From positions 1-21,471 of the IMG/VR virus record IMGVR_UViG_3300042309_000823: a stretch of DNA of 21,471 nt; one strand, given 5' to 3'. The notes below the pieces were generated by a model that had not been told where the DNA came from, did not search any database, and was given only the letters and a program-made list of their open reading frames with translations. Of the stretch, positions 12,884-19,198 are shown piece after piece (position 1 is the stretch's first letter; every line of letters starts with the position of its first letter). The position numbers and the translations under genes were made by a program. This stretch comes from a virus.

Positions 12884-13615
12884 ATGAACTACCTAAAGGT
12901 TTATTGTAATCTTATTAGGAAAGCAGAGAACAGAATTGCTCCTGAAGGTTATACTGAAAAGCACCACATATTTCCTAAAAGCATTTATGGAAATAATAAT
13001 AAAATCGTAGTGCTTACTGCAAAAGAACATTTTATTTCACATATATTATTAGCAAAAATTTGTATTAAAAGATATGGGTTGTATCATAAAAATACTCAAA
13101 AAATGTTATATGCTATAATTAATATGAAAGGTAAAAGTAGTAGATATTATAATTCGTACTTGTATGAAAATGCTAAAATAAAAAGAAATGAAAGTATAAG
13201 AGGACAAAATCATCCAAATTATGGAAAACCTAGATCACAAGAAGTTAAAGATAAAATAAGTTTAAAAAATAAAGGAAAACTTGCTTCTGATCCCAAAGGT
13301 GATAGATTTAAAGAATATAGAGAATTATATGGAAATTTTTGGACCGGAAAAAAACATACCGAAGAATACAAAAAACTAAAATCCATAGATAGATTAAATT
13401 ATTATCAAACGAAAGAAGGAAAAAAACAAAGAGAGCAAATATCACAAACTTTAAAACAAAAAGGTATAAAACCCCCAAATCATGCAATGGGACTATCAAA
13501 AGGAACTAAATGGTGGAATAATGGAGTAACCAATAAAAGATCTATTGAAAGTCCTGGAAAAGATTTTGTGCCTGGAAGAATAAAGGGAGAGTGGAAATGG
13601 AGTAAAAATAAATGA
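12884..13615 (+). CDS. HNH homing endonuclease with NUMOD-type DNA-binding motifs
   Basis: This 243-residue protein is a probable site-specific DNA endonuclease that spreads itself between phages. The N-terminal HNH nuclease has the usual phage form: EKHHIFPKS (H27/H28), a short Asn-rich turn (NNNK, 37-40) and LTAKEHFISH (H49, H53). NUMOD3-like motifs follow (NHPNYGKPRSQEVKDKIS at 109-126 and FWTGKKHTEEYKKLKS at 152-167). The C-terminal GTKWWNNGVTNKRS...PGKDFVPGR element (207-231) is often seen in phage homing endonucleases. The gene is visibly more A-rich than its neighbours. Its TGA overlaps the gp4 ATG as ATGA, and a relic of the gp4 N-terminus lies upstream, so it sits exactly in the 5' end of gp4. 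Expression is probably governed by the hairpin leader. All motifs are intact, so it is likely active. Confidence 0.88.
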   Translation: MNYLKVYCNLIRKAENRIAPEGYTEKHHIFPKSIYGNNNKIVVLTAKEHFISHILLAKICIKRYGLYHKNTQKMLYAIINMKGKSSRYYNSYLYENAKIKRNESIRGQNHPNYGKPRSQEVKDKISLKNKGKLASDPKGDRFKEYRELYGNFWTGKKHTEEYKKLKSIDRLNYYQTKEGKKQREQISQTLKQKGIKPPNHAMGLSKGTKWWNNGVTNKRSIESPGKDFVPGRIKGEWKWSKNK

Positions 13616-14558: not shown

Positions 14559-16085
14559 ATGGCTTATGAATTATTAAAAGACAAATATTATGTGTCTGGA
14601 ATTTACCAACTTGGTGTTCCTCTTGGTTTTGGGTTGAGGTATAATCCTACAAATGGTGATTATGAATTAAAACAGTTGGGTCTTGGTGGTAGTTATGATA
14701 TTGGAATTGGATTAGCACAATTGTATAAAAATGGAACTTGGACGAGTGATGCAATACAAGATCCAAAGTTGTTTATAAATAATGACCCGACCAAGATGAC
14801 CCCACTGGCGCAACAATTGTCTGTGGATATGAGAAAGAAGGTATATGCAGCATATCAAGCAAAAGGGGGCACTGCTGGTGGAAACGTAATTAATGCTACC
14901 GCAAGACCAGCAAATCAAAATAGTCAAGCAGGAGTAAACAATAGTTTTCCAGGAACAAATCCAGGAATAGCAACAGCAATACCAGGAACAGGTGCATTAG
15001 CAGCACCACCAGGACAAGGAAATATTTTCGATCCTGGTTTAGGAAATATCACCAATCTCAATTTTAGCAGTAGCAATGAAAAAGATATTTTTAAAACTGG
15101 TCTTTTATTGTATCCAGTTGACATTTTAAAAGAACAACAAGATACATTACAAATTACAATGTATCGTTATAGAGCACCATTGGAAGGTGTATTTTCTGGA
15201 AAAGTAGATACAAAATCAATATTCACAAAAGGATTGCAAAGAAATAGTGCTCTAAAAGAAGCAATTGCAACTACTATTTTGCCAATTCCCTCTGGCATTC
15301 AAGATAATAATGCTATAAGTTGGGGTGATGACTCAATGAACAATATGACTGCTGGTGTTGCTTCGTATGTAATTGGAAACCCAGGACAAGCAGCAGCAGG
15401 ACAAGCAGCAACAGCAGCAGGTGGAGCAGCATCGAGTGCATTGGGAGTTCCATTGCCAATACAATCAATCAACAACATAGCAACATTATTAGCAGCTGGT
15501 GCATCCCCAGATAATCCTATGTTTAAAACTGCAATTGTTTCTTTACTATTAAAAAATGCTGGGTTTGAAGTTTCTCCAGAAACTATATTAGCAAGAGGTG
15601 CTGGAATTGTTCCAAACTCAAACTTGGAACTACTATTTCAAGGACCAACACTTCGTCAATTTGGGTTCACTTGGCGTATGAGTCCAAGAAGTGAACTAGA
15701 AGCAAAAAATGTAAAAAGAATTATTCGTTTCTTTAAGCAAGGTAGTTCCCCAAGAAAAGTAAATTCCCAATCTGGTGCTGGTGCTAATTCTCTTTTTCTT
15801 GGAACTCCAAATGTTTTTAAACTTTCATATAAAACAGCAGGAAATAAAGAAATATCTGGATTAAATAAATTTAAGATATGTGCTCTTGTCAATATGAGTG
15901 TAGTTTATGCTCCTGATGGTCAATGGGCTGCATATGATGAAGGACAACCAGTATCTTTAACAATGAATTTAAACTTCCAAGAAATTGAACCTGTATATGA
16001 AAATGATTACCAAAAAGATATTTTTAGTGATCTTGTTGGTAAAGATGATTATTCAATAGTCAACGACGACGATGTAGGGTACTAA
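14559..16085 (+). CDS. 48: gp48-like baseplate tail-tube cap
   Basis: This 508-residue protein is longer than T4 gp48 (364). The conserved C-terminal half has LLFQGPTLRQFGFTWRMSPR, a run of charged helix (SELEAKNVKRIIRFFKQGSSPR), NSLFLGTPNVFKLSYKTAG, KFKICALVNMSVVYAPDGQW and SLTMNLNFQEIEPVYENDY. This is the typical gp48 signature. gp48 and gp54 form the top of the baseplate on which the tube grows. The N-terminal part (about 1-170) is Gly/Asn-rich with a Pro/Gly linker (NSFPGTNPGIATAIPGTGA), and residues 275-300 are Ala-rich, so the extra length seems to be low-complexity insertions. In T4 gp48 and gp54 are adjacent and co-directional; here they are on opposite strands about 1.8 kb apart. Confidence 0.85.
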   Translation: MAYELLKDKYYVSGIYQLGVPLGFGLRYNPTNGDYELKQLGLGGSYDIGIGLAQLYKNGTWTSDAIQDPKLFINNDPTKMTPLAQQLSVDMRKKVYAAYQAKGGTAGGNVINATARPANQNSQAGVNNSFPGTNPGIATAIPGTGALAAPPGQGNIFDPGLGNITNLNFSSSNEKDIFKTGLLLYPVDILKEQQDTLQITMYRYRAPLEGVFSGKVDTKSIFTKGLQRNSALKEAIATTILPIPSGIQDNNAISWGDDSMNNMTAGVASYVIGNPGQAAAGQAATAAGGAASSALGVPLPIQSINNIATLLAAGASPDNPMFKTAIVSLLLKNAGFEVSPETILARGAGIVPNSNLELLFQGPTLRQFGFTWRMSPRSELEAKNVKRIIRFFKQGSSPRKVNSQSGAGANSLFLGTPNVFKLSYKTAGNKEISGLNKFKICALVNMSVVYAPDGQWAAYDEGQPVSLTMNLNFQEIEPVYENDYQKDIFSDLVGKDDYSIVNDDDVGY

Positions 16086-16088
16086 AAA

Positions 16089-16922
16089 ATGCCGTATTTT
16101 AAAGAACTTCCAAATTTCGAATATATTGCGAATTTTCCTAATCAGTCATTTAATGACGATTATGTCGTAGCAAAAAATATATTCAAAAGAGCAAAATTAC
16201 GTAGTGATATTGCAAATGCCGTAACTGCTTTTAACTATTATCAAATTATTGATAACGAAAGACCAGACCAAGTTGCTGCAAAAGTTTATGATAATGCAGA
16301 CCTGGATTGGGTAATTTTAACAACAAATAATATCACAAATATCAATCAAGATTGGCCGTTAGATAATAATAGTTTTTATAAGTATCTTATTGATAAGTAT
16401 GGAAGTGATGAAGAACTTGGAAAAACACATCACTGGGAAACTGTTGAGTTTAAAGATGAATATGGACGTGTTGTAGTTCCTGGTGGTTATCAAGTTGACC
16501 CAGCAAAAGCACTATCAGTCACCACTTCTGAAGGTCAAAACGATTATATTTTAAGTGAGTTTCCAAATGAAAATACAAATTATAGTATTACAATAAACTT
16601 AAATCAATATCTTCCTGTTTATAATGGTGAAACAGAAACCGCACAAGCAATCATAAAAGATATTGATCTTAACTCGTCTACATTAAAAGTTGCTGGAAGA
16701 CAAAATAAAATTGATATTAGTGTCACAAATATTTTAGATAATTGGCCTACTAGTTGGGGAGGAAATACTACAATCAAGGGAAGATCTCAAAATACTAAAA
16801 TTCAAGTTCTTGATATTGCATTTGAGAATGATATAATCCTTAATCCATTATTATATGAAATTGTAGGAGAAGAAGTAAATGGTGAAATTGTCCCTGTGTT
16901 TAAATTTAGACAACAAATCTAA
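16089..16922 (+). CDS. 53: gp53-like baseplate wedge protein, N-terminal part
   Basis: This protein has 277 residues. The first 110 residues match the gp53 wedge pattern: a segment of the type KNIFKRAKLRSDIANAVTAF, then YYQIIDNERPDQVAAKVYDN and ADLDWVILTTNNITNINQDW, ending with a Tyr-rich helix before HHWETVEFKDEYGRVVVPGG. gp53 is the last wedge protein and helps wedges join around the hub. Residues about 150-277 are beta-rich (NYSITINLNQYLPVYN ... TIKGRSQNTKIQVLDIAFEN) and not obviously present in T4 gp53 (196 aa). The C-terminal helix conserved in T4 gp53 is missing here and instead lies in the next ORF. It starts 3 nt after gp48. Confidence 0.8.
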   Translation: MPYFKELPNFEYIANFPNQSFNDDYVVAKNIFKRAKLRSDIANAVTAFNYYQIIDNERPDQVAAKVYDNADLDWVILTTNNITNINQDWPLDNNSFYKYLIDKYGSDEELGKTHHWETVEFKDEYGRVVVPGGYQVDPAKALSVTTSEGQNDYILSEFPNENTNYSITINLNQYLPVYNGETETAQAIIKDIDLNSSTLKVAGRQNKIDISVTNILDNWPTSWGGNTTIKGRSQNTKIQVLDIAFENDIILNPLLYEIVGEEVNGEIVPVFKFRQQI

Positions 16923-16938
16923 ATAAAATAAAAACCAT

Positions 16939-17235
16939 ATGTCTATCCCAACTCCTATAAGTGGTGTAAAAATAAAAATATCAACCGACGTTCAAGCAAC
17001 TTCTATCACTGACACAAATGCGTCCAAAGTATCAACTTCATCAATTAAAGAAGTAAGTAATTATGAATATGAAGTTTTGGAAAATGAAAAGAAAAGAAAA
17101 ATATTAATCCTAAAACCAGAATACTTATCAGTCTTTGTAAGTGATATGAAAAATATTATGAAATATGCGGAATCTTCACAATACGTAGATCAAAATACTA
17201 AACGTGGTTATAATCCAAAAATAACTGGGGTGTGA
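16939..17235 (+). CDS. Detached C-terminal part of gp53
   Basis: This is a 98-residue ORF with its own ATG, 16 nt after the 277-aa gp53 ORF and in a different frame. It contains NYEYEVLENEKKRKILILKP followed by a helix of the form EYLSVFVSDMKNIMKY. This resembles the C-terminus of T4 gp53 as I remember it (a YEAAVLENEKLRQIKII segment, then a helix ending near IRIMEKSYG). The N-terminal 40 residues are Ser/Thr-rich. The tail STxQYVDQNTKRGYNP-type end is seen in cyanophage gp53 proteins. Both frames contain stops in the gap (TAA 16920-16922 and TAA 16924-16926), so a simple frameshift would not rejoin them. There is no clear ribosome site. It probably supplies the gp53 C-terminal segment as a separate polypeptide, or the split is an assembly error. 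Confidence 0.65.
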   Translation: MSIPTPISGVKIKISTDVQATSITDTNASKVSTSSIKEVSNYEYEVLENEKKRKILILKPEYLSVFVSDMKNIMKYAESSQYVDQNTKRGYNPKITGV

Positions 17236-17246
17236 ACCCTACAGAC

Positions 17247-17277
17247 AAAAAAATACCCCCGATTTTTTTCGGGGGTA
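17247..17277 (-). terminator. Rho-independent terminator downstream of gp32
   Basis: A 9-bp GC-rich stem (17254-17262 with 17269-17277, core CCCCC/GGGGG) has a 6-nt loop. For leftward RNA it is followed by seven U (the A-run at 17247-17253), a classical intrinsic terminator for the gp32 transcript. For rightward RNA from the gp53 operon the same hairpin lacks a U-tract, so termination there would be weaker. It fills the gap between the two convergent operons. Confidence 0.88.
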
Positions 17278-17304: not shown

Positions 17305-18207
17305 TCAGGAGTTTGCTAGCTTAGAAAAATAGCTCATTGGATCATCCTCGTCTTCGTCATCATCACTAGAAGCAGAAGAACGAACTGAAACAGATTCCTT
17401 CACAGGACGTGAAACTTCAACTTCTTCATCTTCATCAATCGTTTCAGGGTCTTGGAACTTGGGAGTTCCCTTGAGACCAAGTGTATAATCAAGACGTTTC
17501 TTCAAATCTTCATAAGACTTGAATTCACTTGGAGCAACAAAATCATTTAAGTTGTTGAGTGATTTGTAGATTGCTTCCAGTTCATCATCGTCATCAAGAA
17601 GAGCAGAAGGTGATGCAAATTCAGATTTATCATAGTTCCAATAACCATCTTTCTTCACCAACTTCAGTTTGAAGTTAGCACCCTTCCAGAAATCAAAAGG
17701 ATTGATTGGTTCTTCATCATCAAACTCTGGTTGCATAGAAGCCATAATCTTATCAAAGATTTTCTTACCAAACTTATAAAGGAACACTCGTCCTTCATTC
17801 GCAGGGTTCGCAGGATCTTTTACAACATAGATGTTTGCGAAATACGAAAGCTTGCGCTTGCGATCACGAACAATATTTTGATTATCTTTACTACCAGTAT
17901 TCCAAAGTTCTCGGTTTGCTTCACATACAGGACAGTTTTGTCCCAAAGTTGTGAGACAGTTATCAATCAACCAACCACCAGTTCCTTGAAATGCGTGAGA
18001 CCAGACCTGAGCCCAAGGTAGATCACAACCTTCGGGAGCAGGAAGAAAACGGATTACAGCAGAACCAGTTCCACCTTTATCCATTACAGGTTTCCAAAAA
18101 CGATCATCATCTTTGGAACCACCGTCGTTGAGTTTTTCAACTTGTTTGATGAGTTTCTCGGTCAAAGAACCCAGTTTTGATTGCTTCTTCAAATCAGCAA
18201 ATGACAT
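17305..18207 (-). CDS. 32: gp32 single-stranded DNA-binding protein
   Basis: This 300-residue protein (T4 gp32 has 301) is the phage replication and recombination ssDNA-binding protein. The basic N-terminus (LKKQSKLGS) is in the place of the cooperativity motif. The OB core contains VIRFLPAPEGCDLPWAQVW and a zinc site H71-x12-C84-x7-C92-x2-C95 (in WSHAF, DNCLT, NCPVC), close to T4 H-x12-C-x9-C-x2-C. The C-terminus is strongly acidic (SSDDDEDEDDPMSYFSKLAN), the tail that contacts helicase loader and other partners. It lies downstream of gp59, as in T4, with a DUF1825-like gene between them. It has its own sigma70-like promoter, a periodic repeat leader and a terminator, so it can be expressed alone. 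The ATG at 18207 is preceded by GGAG 10 nt upstream. Confidence 0.95.
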   Translation of the reverse strand: MSFADLKKQSKLGSLTEKLIKQVEKLNDGGSKDDDRFWKPVMDKGGTGSAVIRFLPAPEGCDLPWAQVWSHAFQGTGGWLIDNCLTTLGQNCPVCEANRELWNTGSKDNQNIVRDRKRKLSYFANIYVVKDPANPANEGRVFLYKFGKKIFDKIMASMQPEFDDEEPINPFDFWKGANFKLKLVKKDGYWNYDKSEFASPSALLDDDDELEAIYKSLNNLNDFVAPSEFKSYEDLKKRLDYTLGLKGTPKFQDPETIDEDEEVEVSRPVKESVSVRSSASSDDDEDEDDPMSYFSKLANS

Positions 18208-18259
18208 TTGTATTCTCCGTATTTTTTGTATTGAGAGTATTGGATGTATTATCCGTATT
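18206..18259 (-). repeat. Six exact-period 9-nt repeats (AATAC-N4) in gp32 leader
   Basis: Read on the minus strand, AATAC occurs at 18259, 18250, 18241, 18232, 18223 and 18214, each exactly 9 nt after the last. The units are AATAC followed by GGAT, ATCC, TCTC, AAAA, GGAG and AAAT. The last unit includes the AT of the gp32 ATG and the fifth contains the Shine-Dalgarno GGAG. In mRNA this is an unstructured A-rich tract covering the whole leader, a plausible operator for gp32 binding to its own message. Confidence 0.9.
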
Positions 18260-18260
18260 A

Positions 18261-18289
18261 ATTATAGCAGATATAAGGTCAGTCGTCAA
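18261..18289 (-). promoter_or_regulatory. Strong sigma70-type promoter of gp32
   Basis: On the minus strand, -35 TTGACG (18289-18284) and -10 TATAAT (18266-18261) are separated by 17 bp, and TGC precedes the -10 as an extended element. RNA should start near 18254, giving a leader of about 47 nt to the gp32 ATG. The -35 lies in the last codons of the DUF1825-like gene. This would allow early expression by the host RNA polymerase. Confidence 0.85.
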
Positions 18290-18611
18290 GGGTCTTTTCG
18301 AGGTTTTCAATCGACTCTTCCATCTTCGCAAAGAATGTATTGATATTGTCTCCTGGTTCTAATCCAAATAATAAAGCAGAATCAAGAATTCGATTCTTCA
18401 TTTCTATTGCTTCTGGATCATTAGATAGGGATAATCTAAAAATAAAGACTTTTTGTTTTTCTAAAAAATTCTTCATTGTTTCTAGAAGGTCCTTTTTTTT
18501 ATCCGAATCGGAAAAAGGAATTTCAAATAATTCACTAAAAAGTTTGTGTTGAAGTTCATCAAGTTCAAACAAAGATTCTCTGACCTGTTCTGAATCAAAA
18601 AATCCACTCAT
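18279..18611 (-). CDS. DUF1825-like small protein (cyanobacterial family)
   Basis: This 110-residue, helical, acidic protein begins MSGFFDSEQVRESLFELDEL. The GFFDSE-x-V start, the length, the central FLEKQKVFIFRLSLSNDPEA segment and the end NTFFAKMEESIENLEKTL fit DUF1825, a protein family I know from cyanobacteria (start GFFDSEIVQ, central RYRIFMKRFELSEDF, end QMxxTLERMK). The biochemical role is not known to me. It overlaps gp59 as ATGA, so it is co-translated with it, and the gp32 promoter starts in its last codons. T4 has no gene at this place. It may be an acquired host protein or regulator, and its position among gp33/gp59/gp32 hints at a link to replication or transcription, which is inference. 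Confidence 0.7.
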   Translation of the reverse strand: MSGFFDSEQVRESLFELDELQHKLFSELFEIPFSDSDKKKDLLETMKNFLEKQKVFIFRLSLSNDPEAIEMKNRILDSALLFGLEPGDNINTFFAKMEESIENLEKTLDD

Positions 18612-19198
18612 AAAACAATCTCCTTGACAATTTGTTTATACTTTGCTACATCAATATTTAGAAAAGGTTGATACTTGCGAATTCTCAGACTGACGGTTTC
18701 CCACACTGGGTCTGTTAGTTTCTTATCAAACTTTTTCACATAACCCAATATCATATCCAATATAACCATTGTCTCCAAACTGATTGCTTTTTGAAAATAC
18801 TTTTTGAGAATTTCTGGATGTTGATTGTTTTTTATCTCAAATAATTCCACAAAACTATCTTTGTTTATAAAGATTTCTGCTTCTGTTTTGAATAAGTAAA
18901 AAAGACTTTGAGATTTTTTCAACCAATTTGTATAAACTTGTTCTCCATTCTCAATGATTTCACCAATCCATAAAGATTGAGTGTCATTACATTCTGCAAA
19001 GTTTGCTACAAAATATGCTTTGATTTCATCATCATTTTTCTGTCTAGAAGTTCGTTCAAAGAAATACCTATCCTTCCTCTTATGAAAAGAGTCCAGAGAT
19101 GCTCTGGACTTTCCACAATATTTAAAGTAATCGTAATTTTCTTTTGTAAAATGATTTTTGAATGCTAAGTAAGTTTTATATACATCAAAAGGAGTCAC
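18608..19198 (-). CDS. 59: gp59 loader of replicative helicase
   Basis: This protein has 196 residues, close to T4 gp59 (217). It loads the gp41 helicase onto gp32-coated forks. The alignment from memory is clear: DVYKTYLAFKNHF / VYKLYLMIKQH, then SFHKRKDRYFFERTSR / YQKRRDKYFFQKLSE, SLWIGEI / AWIGDI, ISLETMVILDMILGYVKKFD, DPVWETVSLRIRKY and FLNIDVAKYKQI near the end. The start is GTG 19198, overlapping the gp33 stop as GTGA; no in-frame ATG occurs nearby, and conserved residues begin at position 5, so GTG is favoured. This leaves it about a dozen residues shorter at the N-terminus than T4. It is coupled to the DUF1825-like gene downstream. Confidence 0.92.
   Translation of the reverse strand: MTPFDVYKTYLAFKNHFTKENYDYFKYCGKSRASLDSFHKRKDRYFFERTSRQKNDDEIKAYFVANFAECNDTQSLWIGEIIENGEQVYTNWLKKSQSLFYLFKTEAEIFINKDSFVELFEIKNNQHPEILKKYFQKAISLETMVILDMILGYVKKFDKKLTDPVWETVSLRIRKYQPFLNIDVAKYKQIVKEIVL

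Follow-up and report, generated by a model that had tools for sequence, protein, structure and literature searches.

We analyzed a 21,471-nucleotide stretch of viral DNA (positions 1 to 21,471 of IMG/VR record IMGVR_UViG_3300042309_000823, hereafter the window) in which the leader of the gp32 gene consists of six AATAC-N4 units repeated with an exact 9-nt period. On the strength of pattern scans with shuffled controls, comparison with relatives and covariation analysis, we infer that gp32 binds this leader and represses its own translation, and that the array is very probably an autogenous operator of gp32. The features concerned are as follows.

18206..18259, minus strand: periodic array of six AATAC-N4 units, the proposed gp32 translational operator
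18259-18251, 18250-18242, 18241-18233, 18232-18224, 18223-18215 and 18214-18206, minus strand: array units 1 to 6
18215..18218, minus strand: Shine-Dalgarno sequence GGAG
18261..18289, minus strand: sigma-70-type promoter TTGACG-17-TATAAT, matching the consensus at 11 of 12 positions, the -10 element preceded by TG
17305..18207, minus strand: gp32 gene (phrog_224, E 1.1e-116; PF08804, E 7e-47; PDB gp32 chains)
18001..18003, minus strand: codon of gp32 Trp69 (T4 Val62 position; T4 numbering by alignment), covarying with core base 4
18007..18009, minus strand: codon of gp32 Gln67 (T4 position 60), covarying column ranked second
18279..18611, minus strand: gene upstream of gp32 for a DUF1825 protein (PF08855, phrog_468), its 3' end overlapping the promoter -35
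17254..17277, minus strand: terminator-like hairpin 3' of gp32

The AATAC cores start at minus-strand positions 18259, 18250, 18241, 18232, 18223 and 18214, and these coordinates and spacings confirm the initial annotation, which had described six units without phase slip from the promoter to the start codon. The spacers of units 1 to 5 are all different (GGAT, ATCC, TCTC, AAAA and GGAG). The ribosome site and part of the ATG do lie within units 5 and 6, as had also been claimed: the Shine-Dalgarno sequence is the spacer of unit 5, and unit 6 (AATACAAAT, 18214-18206) overlaps the gp32 ATG (18207-18205). The array therefore sits in the gene 32 leader over the ribosome-binding site, as in the T4-type gp32 operator. 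A scan of the window for runs of three cores, allowing two mismatches at most, gave four matches, every one in the array tract; in dinucleotide shuffles the same pattern averaged 0.14 matches and never exceeded 2. The six-unit array exceeds chance, and its conservation is a stronger argument than this shuffle test.

Plain self-similarity at lag 9 was rejected as an array detector, because coding repeats at 15375 (29 of 45) and 9535 (28) rival the leader (29 of 45), and at least 1 of 300 simulated windows also reached 29. The distinctive feature is an exact core with varying spacers, rather than 9-nt self-similarity. A search of 17900-18700 against Rfam 15 returned three matches at a cutoff of E 10, all of them far short of the gathering score of their family.

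The six units fill the leader between the promoter and the gp32 ATG, and the array directly follows the -10 element. At a lax threshold, one promoter was found, compared to 4.1 promoter-like sites in shuffles of the region, so that the case for this promoter is its near-perfect match and its placement. Transcription would start at or near unit 1, and the leader RNA would then be almost pure array. Excerpts of PMC2984593 give NATAAATA as the late promoter form of cyanomyoviruses and report that motA and asiA are absent from them. Downstream of gp32, the single terminator-like hairpin compares with 0.8 expected in shuffles, which is weak when taken alone; the stretch from the promoter through the array and gp32 to the terminator could be a one-gene unit.

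The encoded protein belongs to the gp32 family: it has the core fold (PF08804), structure matches to 2A1K, 1GPC and 8GME, and the internal LAST basic motif, in which Lys117-Arg118-Lys119, aligned with T4 residues 110-112, is invariant in 55 sequences. An AlphaFold model (mean pLDDT 80.7, with block values of 90-97 for residues 41 to 240) matches the RB69 and T4 gp32 cores. Upstream of gp32 lie the DUF1825 and gp59 genes, then gp33, an exonuclease and PhoH; a contig search with gp59 as bait gave no match. In IMG/VR, the closest locus found shares 98% identity in gp32. Since the closest named phage by gp32 is Synechococcus phage S-SCSM2R (70.8% over 89%), we regard the window virus as a cyanophage-like relative of T4.

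Two further loci of the window were noted. The adjacent plus-strand ORFs 16089-16922 and 16939-17235 both match the baseplate wedge family phrog_232 (positions 2-167 and 131-212), and a wedge gene at 16089-17235 may be split or interrupted. A homing endonuclease gene (phrog_655; 12884-13615, plus strand) lies between the tail tube and head closure genes and overlaps the next start codon by 4 bases.

Conservation and fold of the leader in relatives

Leaders were fetched by homology and grouped into 198 gp32 clusters at 90% identity, and cores of the form AAT(A/C)(C/T) were counted in the stretch -45..-1. At least two cores were present in 186 clusters, one in 10 and none in 2. The initial annotation had named a phage with the same gp32 and no periodic leader as a case against an operator; such cases were looked for and are rare (12 of 198 clusters with 0 or 1 core). 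In a set of 104 clusters at 85% identity, fetched by homology or as named records and scored for AATAC or AATCC only, the last 45 nt held at least two cores in 82 clusters, one in 13 and none in 9, and the control stretch -110..-66 lacked both motifs in 92 of the 104. Loci fetched by the AATAC pattern itself were used in a 108-cluster periodicity run and left out of both counts, of the trees, of the pseudoknot and promoter-distance surveys and of the covariation analysis; loci were also left out when no start codon was found, when the leader was shorter than 60 nt or when the protein was under 180-200 aa.

Periodicity was evident in the leaders as a group. Mean self-identity in the 104 clusters was 0.449, 0.405 and 0.355 at lags 9, 18 and 27, and the maxima among 300 mononucleotide-shuffled sets were 0.330, 0.335 and 0.341. 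The 108-cluster run, which was our first and used dinucleotide shuffles, gave z values of 18.7, 11.4 and 4.7 at the same lags and a further peak at lag 15 (z 5.7); its controls reached z 6.1, 5.2 and 2.9 upstream (lags 21, 12 and 9) and 6.2 and 2.4 at the gene start (lags 5 and 9).

The spacing of cores was 9 nt in 203, 10 nt in 109 and 18 or 19 nt in 31 of 400 cases from the 198 clusters. With 312 of the 400 at 9 or 10 nt, not every relative keeps a strict 9-nt step. In the comparison suggested with the initial annotation, position, core and period proved largely conserved among relatives while spacers vary, with a step of either 9 or 10 nt. Phages with Trp or Phe at gp32 residue 69 have 137 of 193 spacings at 9 nt, versus 66 of 207 in those with Tyr, which have 93 at 10 nt. 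The exact 9-nt period is typical of Trp- and Phe-type lineages, including that of the window, and Tyr-type lineages differ.

Cores are kept and spacers vary even among gp32s less than 50% identical. The window carries AAUAC; relatives also have AAUCC/AAUCU or CAUAC. Within a leader the core is mostly uniform, with 12 of 82 leaders mixed compared to 41.3 expected (2000 shuffles, minimum 31). A core (AATAC, AATCC or an NATNY variant) runs directly into GGAG, GAGG or AGGA in 76 of 104 representative leaders. Close relatives can depart from the window: one leader (L015, gp32 85% identical to that of the window) is irregular, and two others (L006 and L008, 93%) have three units only. Many Tyr-type leaders (L300-L726) contain a string resembling GTACACAAAAGCCAAATC just 5' of the first core, about 20-40 nt before the ATG.

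We then considered how these leaders fold. RNAalifold gave the window clade an energy of 0 and no consensus fold (33 of 39 distinct leaders, picked by eye), which indicates that the array is probably single-stranded; the six units form an unstructured stretch of repeated short A/U-rich elements. The 51-nt leader of the window itself shows weak, unconserved pairing (-4.9 kcal/mol, z -2.4, with 5 of 200 shuffles as good). Its individual hairpins, pairing spacer 1 (GGAT) with spacer 2 (ATCC) and CTCT with the Shine-Dalgarno sequence, are absent from the consensus of the 33 relatives and were therefore treated as chance.

In another clade (clade B; 34 of 54 distinct leaders, picked by eye), a covarying hairpin of energy -6.4 lies 5' of the array, with up to five pair types at one position and pairing kept. 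The loop of the best hairpin holds ATAC, ACAC or TA(C/T)AC in 27 of 33 leaders, which are related sequences and not independent. In L204-L272 the covarying hairpin, usually with core-like ATAC or ACAC in its loop, lies about 35-60 nt before the gp32 ATG; by analogy, it could be a nucleation site comparable to the T4 pseudoknot. The earlier view that, unlike in T4, no structure nucleates binding thus agrees with the window clade and fails to extend to this other clade. A simple pseudoknot finder picks out a pseudoknot in T2 (score 30); with it, the window leader scored 17, below the 95% level of shuffled relatives (about 24.6). Twenty-one of the 104 leaders reach that level, and by eye many of these pseudoknots sit in the promoter or the upstream gene. 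H-type pseudoknots 5' of AATAC cores are convincing by eye in L356 and L326, and in L329 a plausible alternative by eye differs from that of the finder. This suggests that a T4-like pseudoknot architecture is present in some cyanophage-like relatives.

Covariation of core base 4 with gp32 residue 69

The fourth base of the core, A or C, covaries with one gp32 residue, which is Trp69 of the motif PWAQVW-S-H in the window and Val62 in T4. In a first pass on the 104 clusters, 78 of which had both traits, Tyr69 was found in 14 of 14 AATCC clusters versus 1 of 64 AATAC clusters. Since this pass held too few switches for a test, three more sequence sets were fetched; all of the fetching queries were Tyr-type, and the added data are therefore mostly Tyr-type. 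They contributed 158 new distinct leaders, 150 of them with at least two cores (Tyr-type: C in 128, A in 2 and a tie in 14; Trp-type: A in 2 and a tie in 1; Phe-type: A in 3). The 375 distinct leaders in total are distributed as follows.

Tyr69: 122 pure AATCC, 3 pure AATAC, 29 mixed, 74 with fewer than two cores
Trp69: 0 pure AATCC, 53 pure AATAC, 14 mixed, 6 with fewer than two cores
Phe69: 0 pure AATCC, 58 pure AATAC, 2 mixed, 14 with fewer than two cores

Counted unit by unit in the 198 clusters, base 4 was C or A in 297 and 25 units of Tyr-type, 12 and 124 of Trp-type, and 3 and 135 of Phe-type leaders; in the last 30 nt only, the counts were 256 and 19, 6 and 92, and 0 and 104. Exceptions to the residue rule amount to 3 of 176 clusters when the majority base in 45 nt is used and to 5 of 198 in the last 30 nt (L334, L346, L473, L575 and L708).

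Shared ancestry was taken into account in several ways. Independent contrasts on a tree built without columns 60-75 gave r 0.545 for Tyr69 (185 contrasts, nominal p 8e-16; such p-values are nominal because the traits are binary and the tree approximate). Tyr69 ranked first among 534 residue traits in 175 columns; column 67 came next (0.35, for Lys at this position) and the rest were at or below 0.21. Nearest edge-disjoint pairs agreed with the residue-base rule in 7 of 7 cases (sign p 0.016), and a stricter count left 3 well-supported pairs (on average 2.9 in agreement and none against), a number that cannot reach p < 0.05. The best tree of gp32 requires four changes of the core; built from one short protein, it is poorly resolved, with 35 of 101 inner branches open.

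GC content and upstream C/(A+C) are equal across the Tyr, Trp and Phe classes. In the upstream control (-150..-60), the C/A counts of the motif were 43/57 for Tyr, 16/13 for Trp and 3/29 for Phe, and motif instances in the gene-start control were all C-type in every class. The Tyr-Trp split is confined to the leader; Phe-type phages are A-rich upstream too.

Outside the set, a KVP40-like Vibrio phage (PP712906, L480) has Phe69 and AATAC/AATAT cores, as the rule predicts. T4, T2 and RB49 have Val at the equivalent position and UUAAA-type units. Stenotrophomonas phage BUCT608 and Nitratidesulfovibrio phage SRB7757 fall outside the rule: Tyr69 is present in both, without clear AATCC cores.

In the AlphaFold model, residue 69 lies on a predicted strand, 65-75, followed by the strand 78-83; by alignment these are T4 58-68 and 71-76. 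The T4-equivalent stretch includes Lys67, Lys71 and Trp72, which excerpts of PMC11551737 list as ssDNA contacts, a list from which T4 residue 62 is absent. Because an unrelated reader that merely followed the phage lineages would not pick out two neighboring gp32 positions, gp32 itself is the most likely reader. The association of motif type with one gp32 residue makes it very probable that gp32 recognizes its own mRNA and represses its own production.

Gene specificity and alternative readings

In order to determine whether such arrays occur elsewhere, IMG/VR was scanned blindly for four exact units, which yielded at least 119 stretches. Among the 80 loci listed, 21 have gp32 directly downstream and varied spacers; for the remaining 59, the DNA fetched gave no match to gp32, and many of them have near-constant spacers like coding repeats. 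Twenty larger IMG/VR records (2.13 Mb in all, either fragmentary or of uncertain completeness) carry an array of at least three cores at gp32 in 14 cases (10 AATAC, 4 AATCC). Matches away from gp32 occur in three of the 20 (G019, G017 and G001), where near-constant spacers indicate that they are probably coding sequence. In 12 named phage records, a three-core array was found in four, each time at gp32, and two other matches fall within genes annotated as sigma factors. In 6 of the 20 IMG/VR and 8 of the 12 named phage records, arrays of three exact cores were found nowhere. The array is largely gene-specific to gp32.

These data bear on who reads the array. One rival is that the array is bound, in place of gp32, by RegA, which represses translation generally in T4-type phages. 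All 17 records searched contain a PF01818 (Translat_reg) gene, which we take to encode RegA. Selection with RB69 RegA yields UAA triplets, according to a title cited in PMC3014915, and UAAU occurs in parts of some arrays. Excerpts of the same source have RegA acting on many mRNAs, which should place the same site before several replication genes; we found arrays of at least three cores at gp32 and the few other matches in, or resembling, coding sequence. A RegA reader would also not explain why the core covaries with one gp32 site, and we consider it improbable. Slightly less probable still is a generic unstructured leader that aids ribosome loading, as an S1-type enhancer would, with no specific repressor. 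The leader is indeed A-rich and the consensus fold energy of the window clade fits; however, a loading aid has no need of a fixed core every 9-10 nt, or of one that varies with a residue of gp32, and it would be expected before other strongly expressed genes, where the 20 + 12 records held no leader-like array of at least three cores (the five other matches being unannotated or coding).

The placement of the array argues for action on RNA. In 104 leaders, the gap between the end of the last core and the start codon is 0-4 nt in 62 and 8-12 nt in 26, whereas the distance from the -10 element to the start codon ranges from 23 to 107 nt in the 89 leaders with a promoter match. Anchoring to the start codon with a variable promoter distance fits an RNA-level operator at the ribosome site. 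The position of the window array directly behind the -10 element would suit a DNA-level operator for a transcription regulator, yet this anchoring, the covarying hairpin before the array in one clade and the Shine-Dalgarno sequence built into the array leave such a reading quite unlikely. Least credible of all is a neutral tandem repeat, for slippage does produce short-unit repeats but would copy the spacers, and here spacers differ and cores are kept across widely diverged gp32s. Near-constant spacers are seen in many other arrays among the 80 listed loci of the blind scan.

Taken together, these results favor gp32 as the regulator of its own leader. The initial proposal of a linear array serving as gp32's translational operator gains from comparative conservation and from the core-residue covariation, and overall is supported in part.

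Proposed mechanism and known systems

We propose that when gp32 is in excess of the available single-stranded DNA, free gp32 would bind the leader RNA cooperatively. The cores would set the register, the OB-fold surface around gp32 residues 67-69 would read base 4, and the resulting filament would cover the Shine-Dalgarno sequence and the AUG and block ribosomes. In the window lineage, where we see no folded element for nucleation and the transcript probably starts within the array, specificity would come from evenly spaced sequence cores instead of a pseudoknot; the other lineage would place a hairpin 5' of the same kind of array. One gp32 monomer per unit is a plausible and the simplest reading of the period, and the weakest step. 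A 9-10-nt step fits a filament register, yet T4 gp32 occludes 7-8 nt (7 nt in excerpts of PMC10484735 and PMC7826291, 8 +/- 2 in those of PMC12893549), and we therefore put this stoichiometry forward tentatively.

With less confidence, we lean toward a more specific model in which gp32 of these phages is a base-reading RNA protein. Residue 69 (Trp/Phe versus Tyr), helped by residue 67, would set AAUAC versus AAUC(C/U), the leader would be a ruler of cores in filament register, the pair would have switched together several times, and hairpins or pseudoknots would be optional 5' additions. If so, gp32, which has long been regarded as coating ssDNA essentially without regard to sequence, reads RNA bases, a rare case of protein-RNA coevolution readable at one residue and one base. 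According to excerpts of PMC535899, how gp32 distinguishes its own RNA from other nucleic acids is unclear, and leader binding by gp32 of pseudoknot-less T4-like phages remains to be seen. These phages provide natural matched pairs, with two leader alphabets and two residue classes, so that the specificity question becomes testable with a handful of proteins and short RNAs. The model would also describe gp32 control in marine cyanophage-like phages, on which we found nothing in the portions of the open-access literature searched. The same portions contained no description of the periodic array, its spread or the base-residue covariation; within them, these appear new, and an autogenous gp32 operator is of a known kind.

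Autogenous repression by T4 and RB69 gp32 acts through a leader with repeated unstructured elements, according to excerpts of PMC535899 and PMC3014915. The window shares with the T4, T2 and RB69 operators the gene, the place over the ribosome site and the unstructured A/U-rich repeats of short elements, and its protein has the fold of T4 and RB69 gp32 by model match. It differs in that no pseudoknot was found in the window clade, in having AAUAC/AAUCC cores at 9-10 nt rather than UUAAA/UAAA, in the promoter directly before the array, and in the core-residue covariation, for which we found no description in T4. The RB49 gene 32 leader is likewise reported, in excerpts of PMC535899, to lack a pseudoknot yet to carry repeated units; these are UUAA/UUAAA, however, and no 9-nt period was measured in that leader. 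T4 RegA resembles the proposed regulator as a phage protein that represses translation at ribosome sites, and its gene is present in these phages, but it has many target genes, unlike the long array here before one gene. The KVP40-like Vibrio phage, a single example, combines AATAC/AATAT cores before gp32 with Phe69, in line with the residue rule, but has a period of 5/10/15 nt instead of 9.
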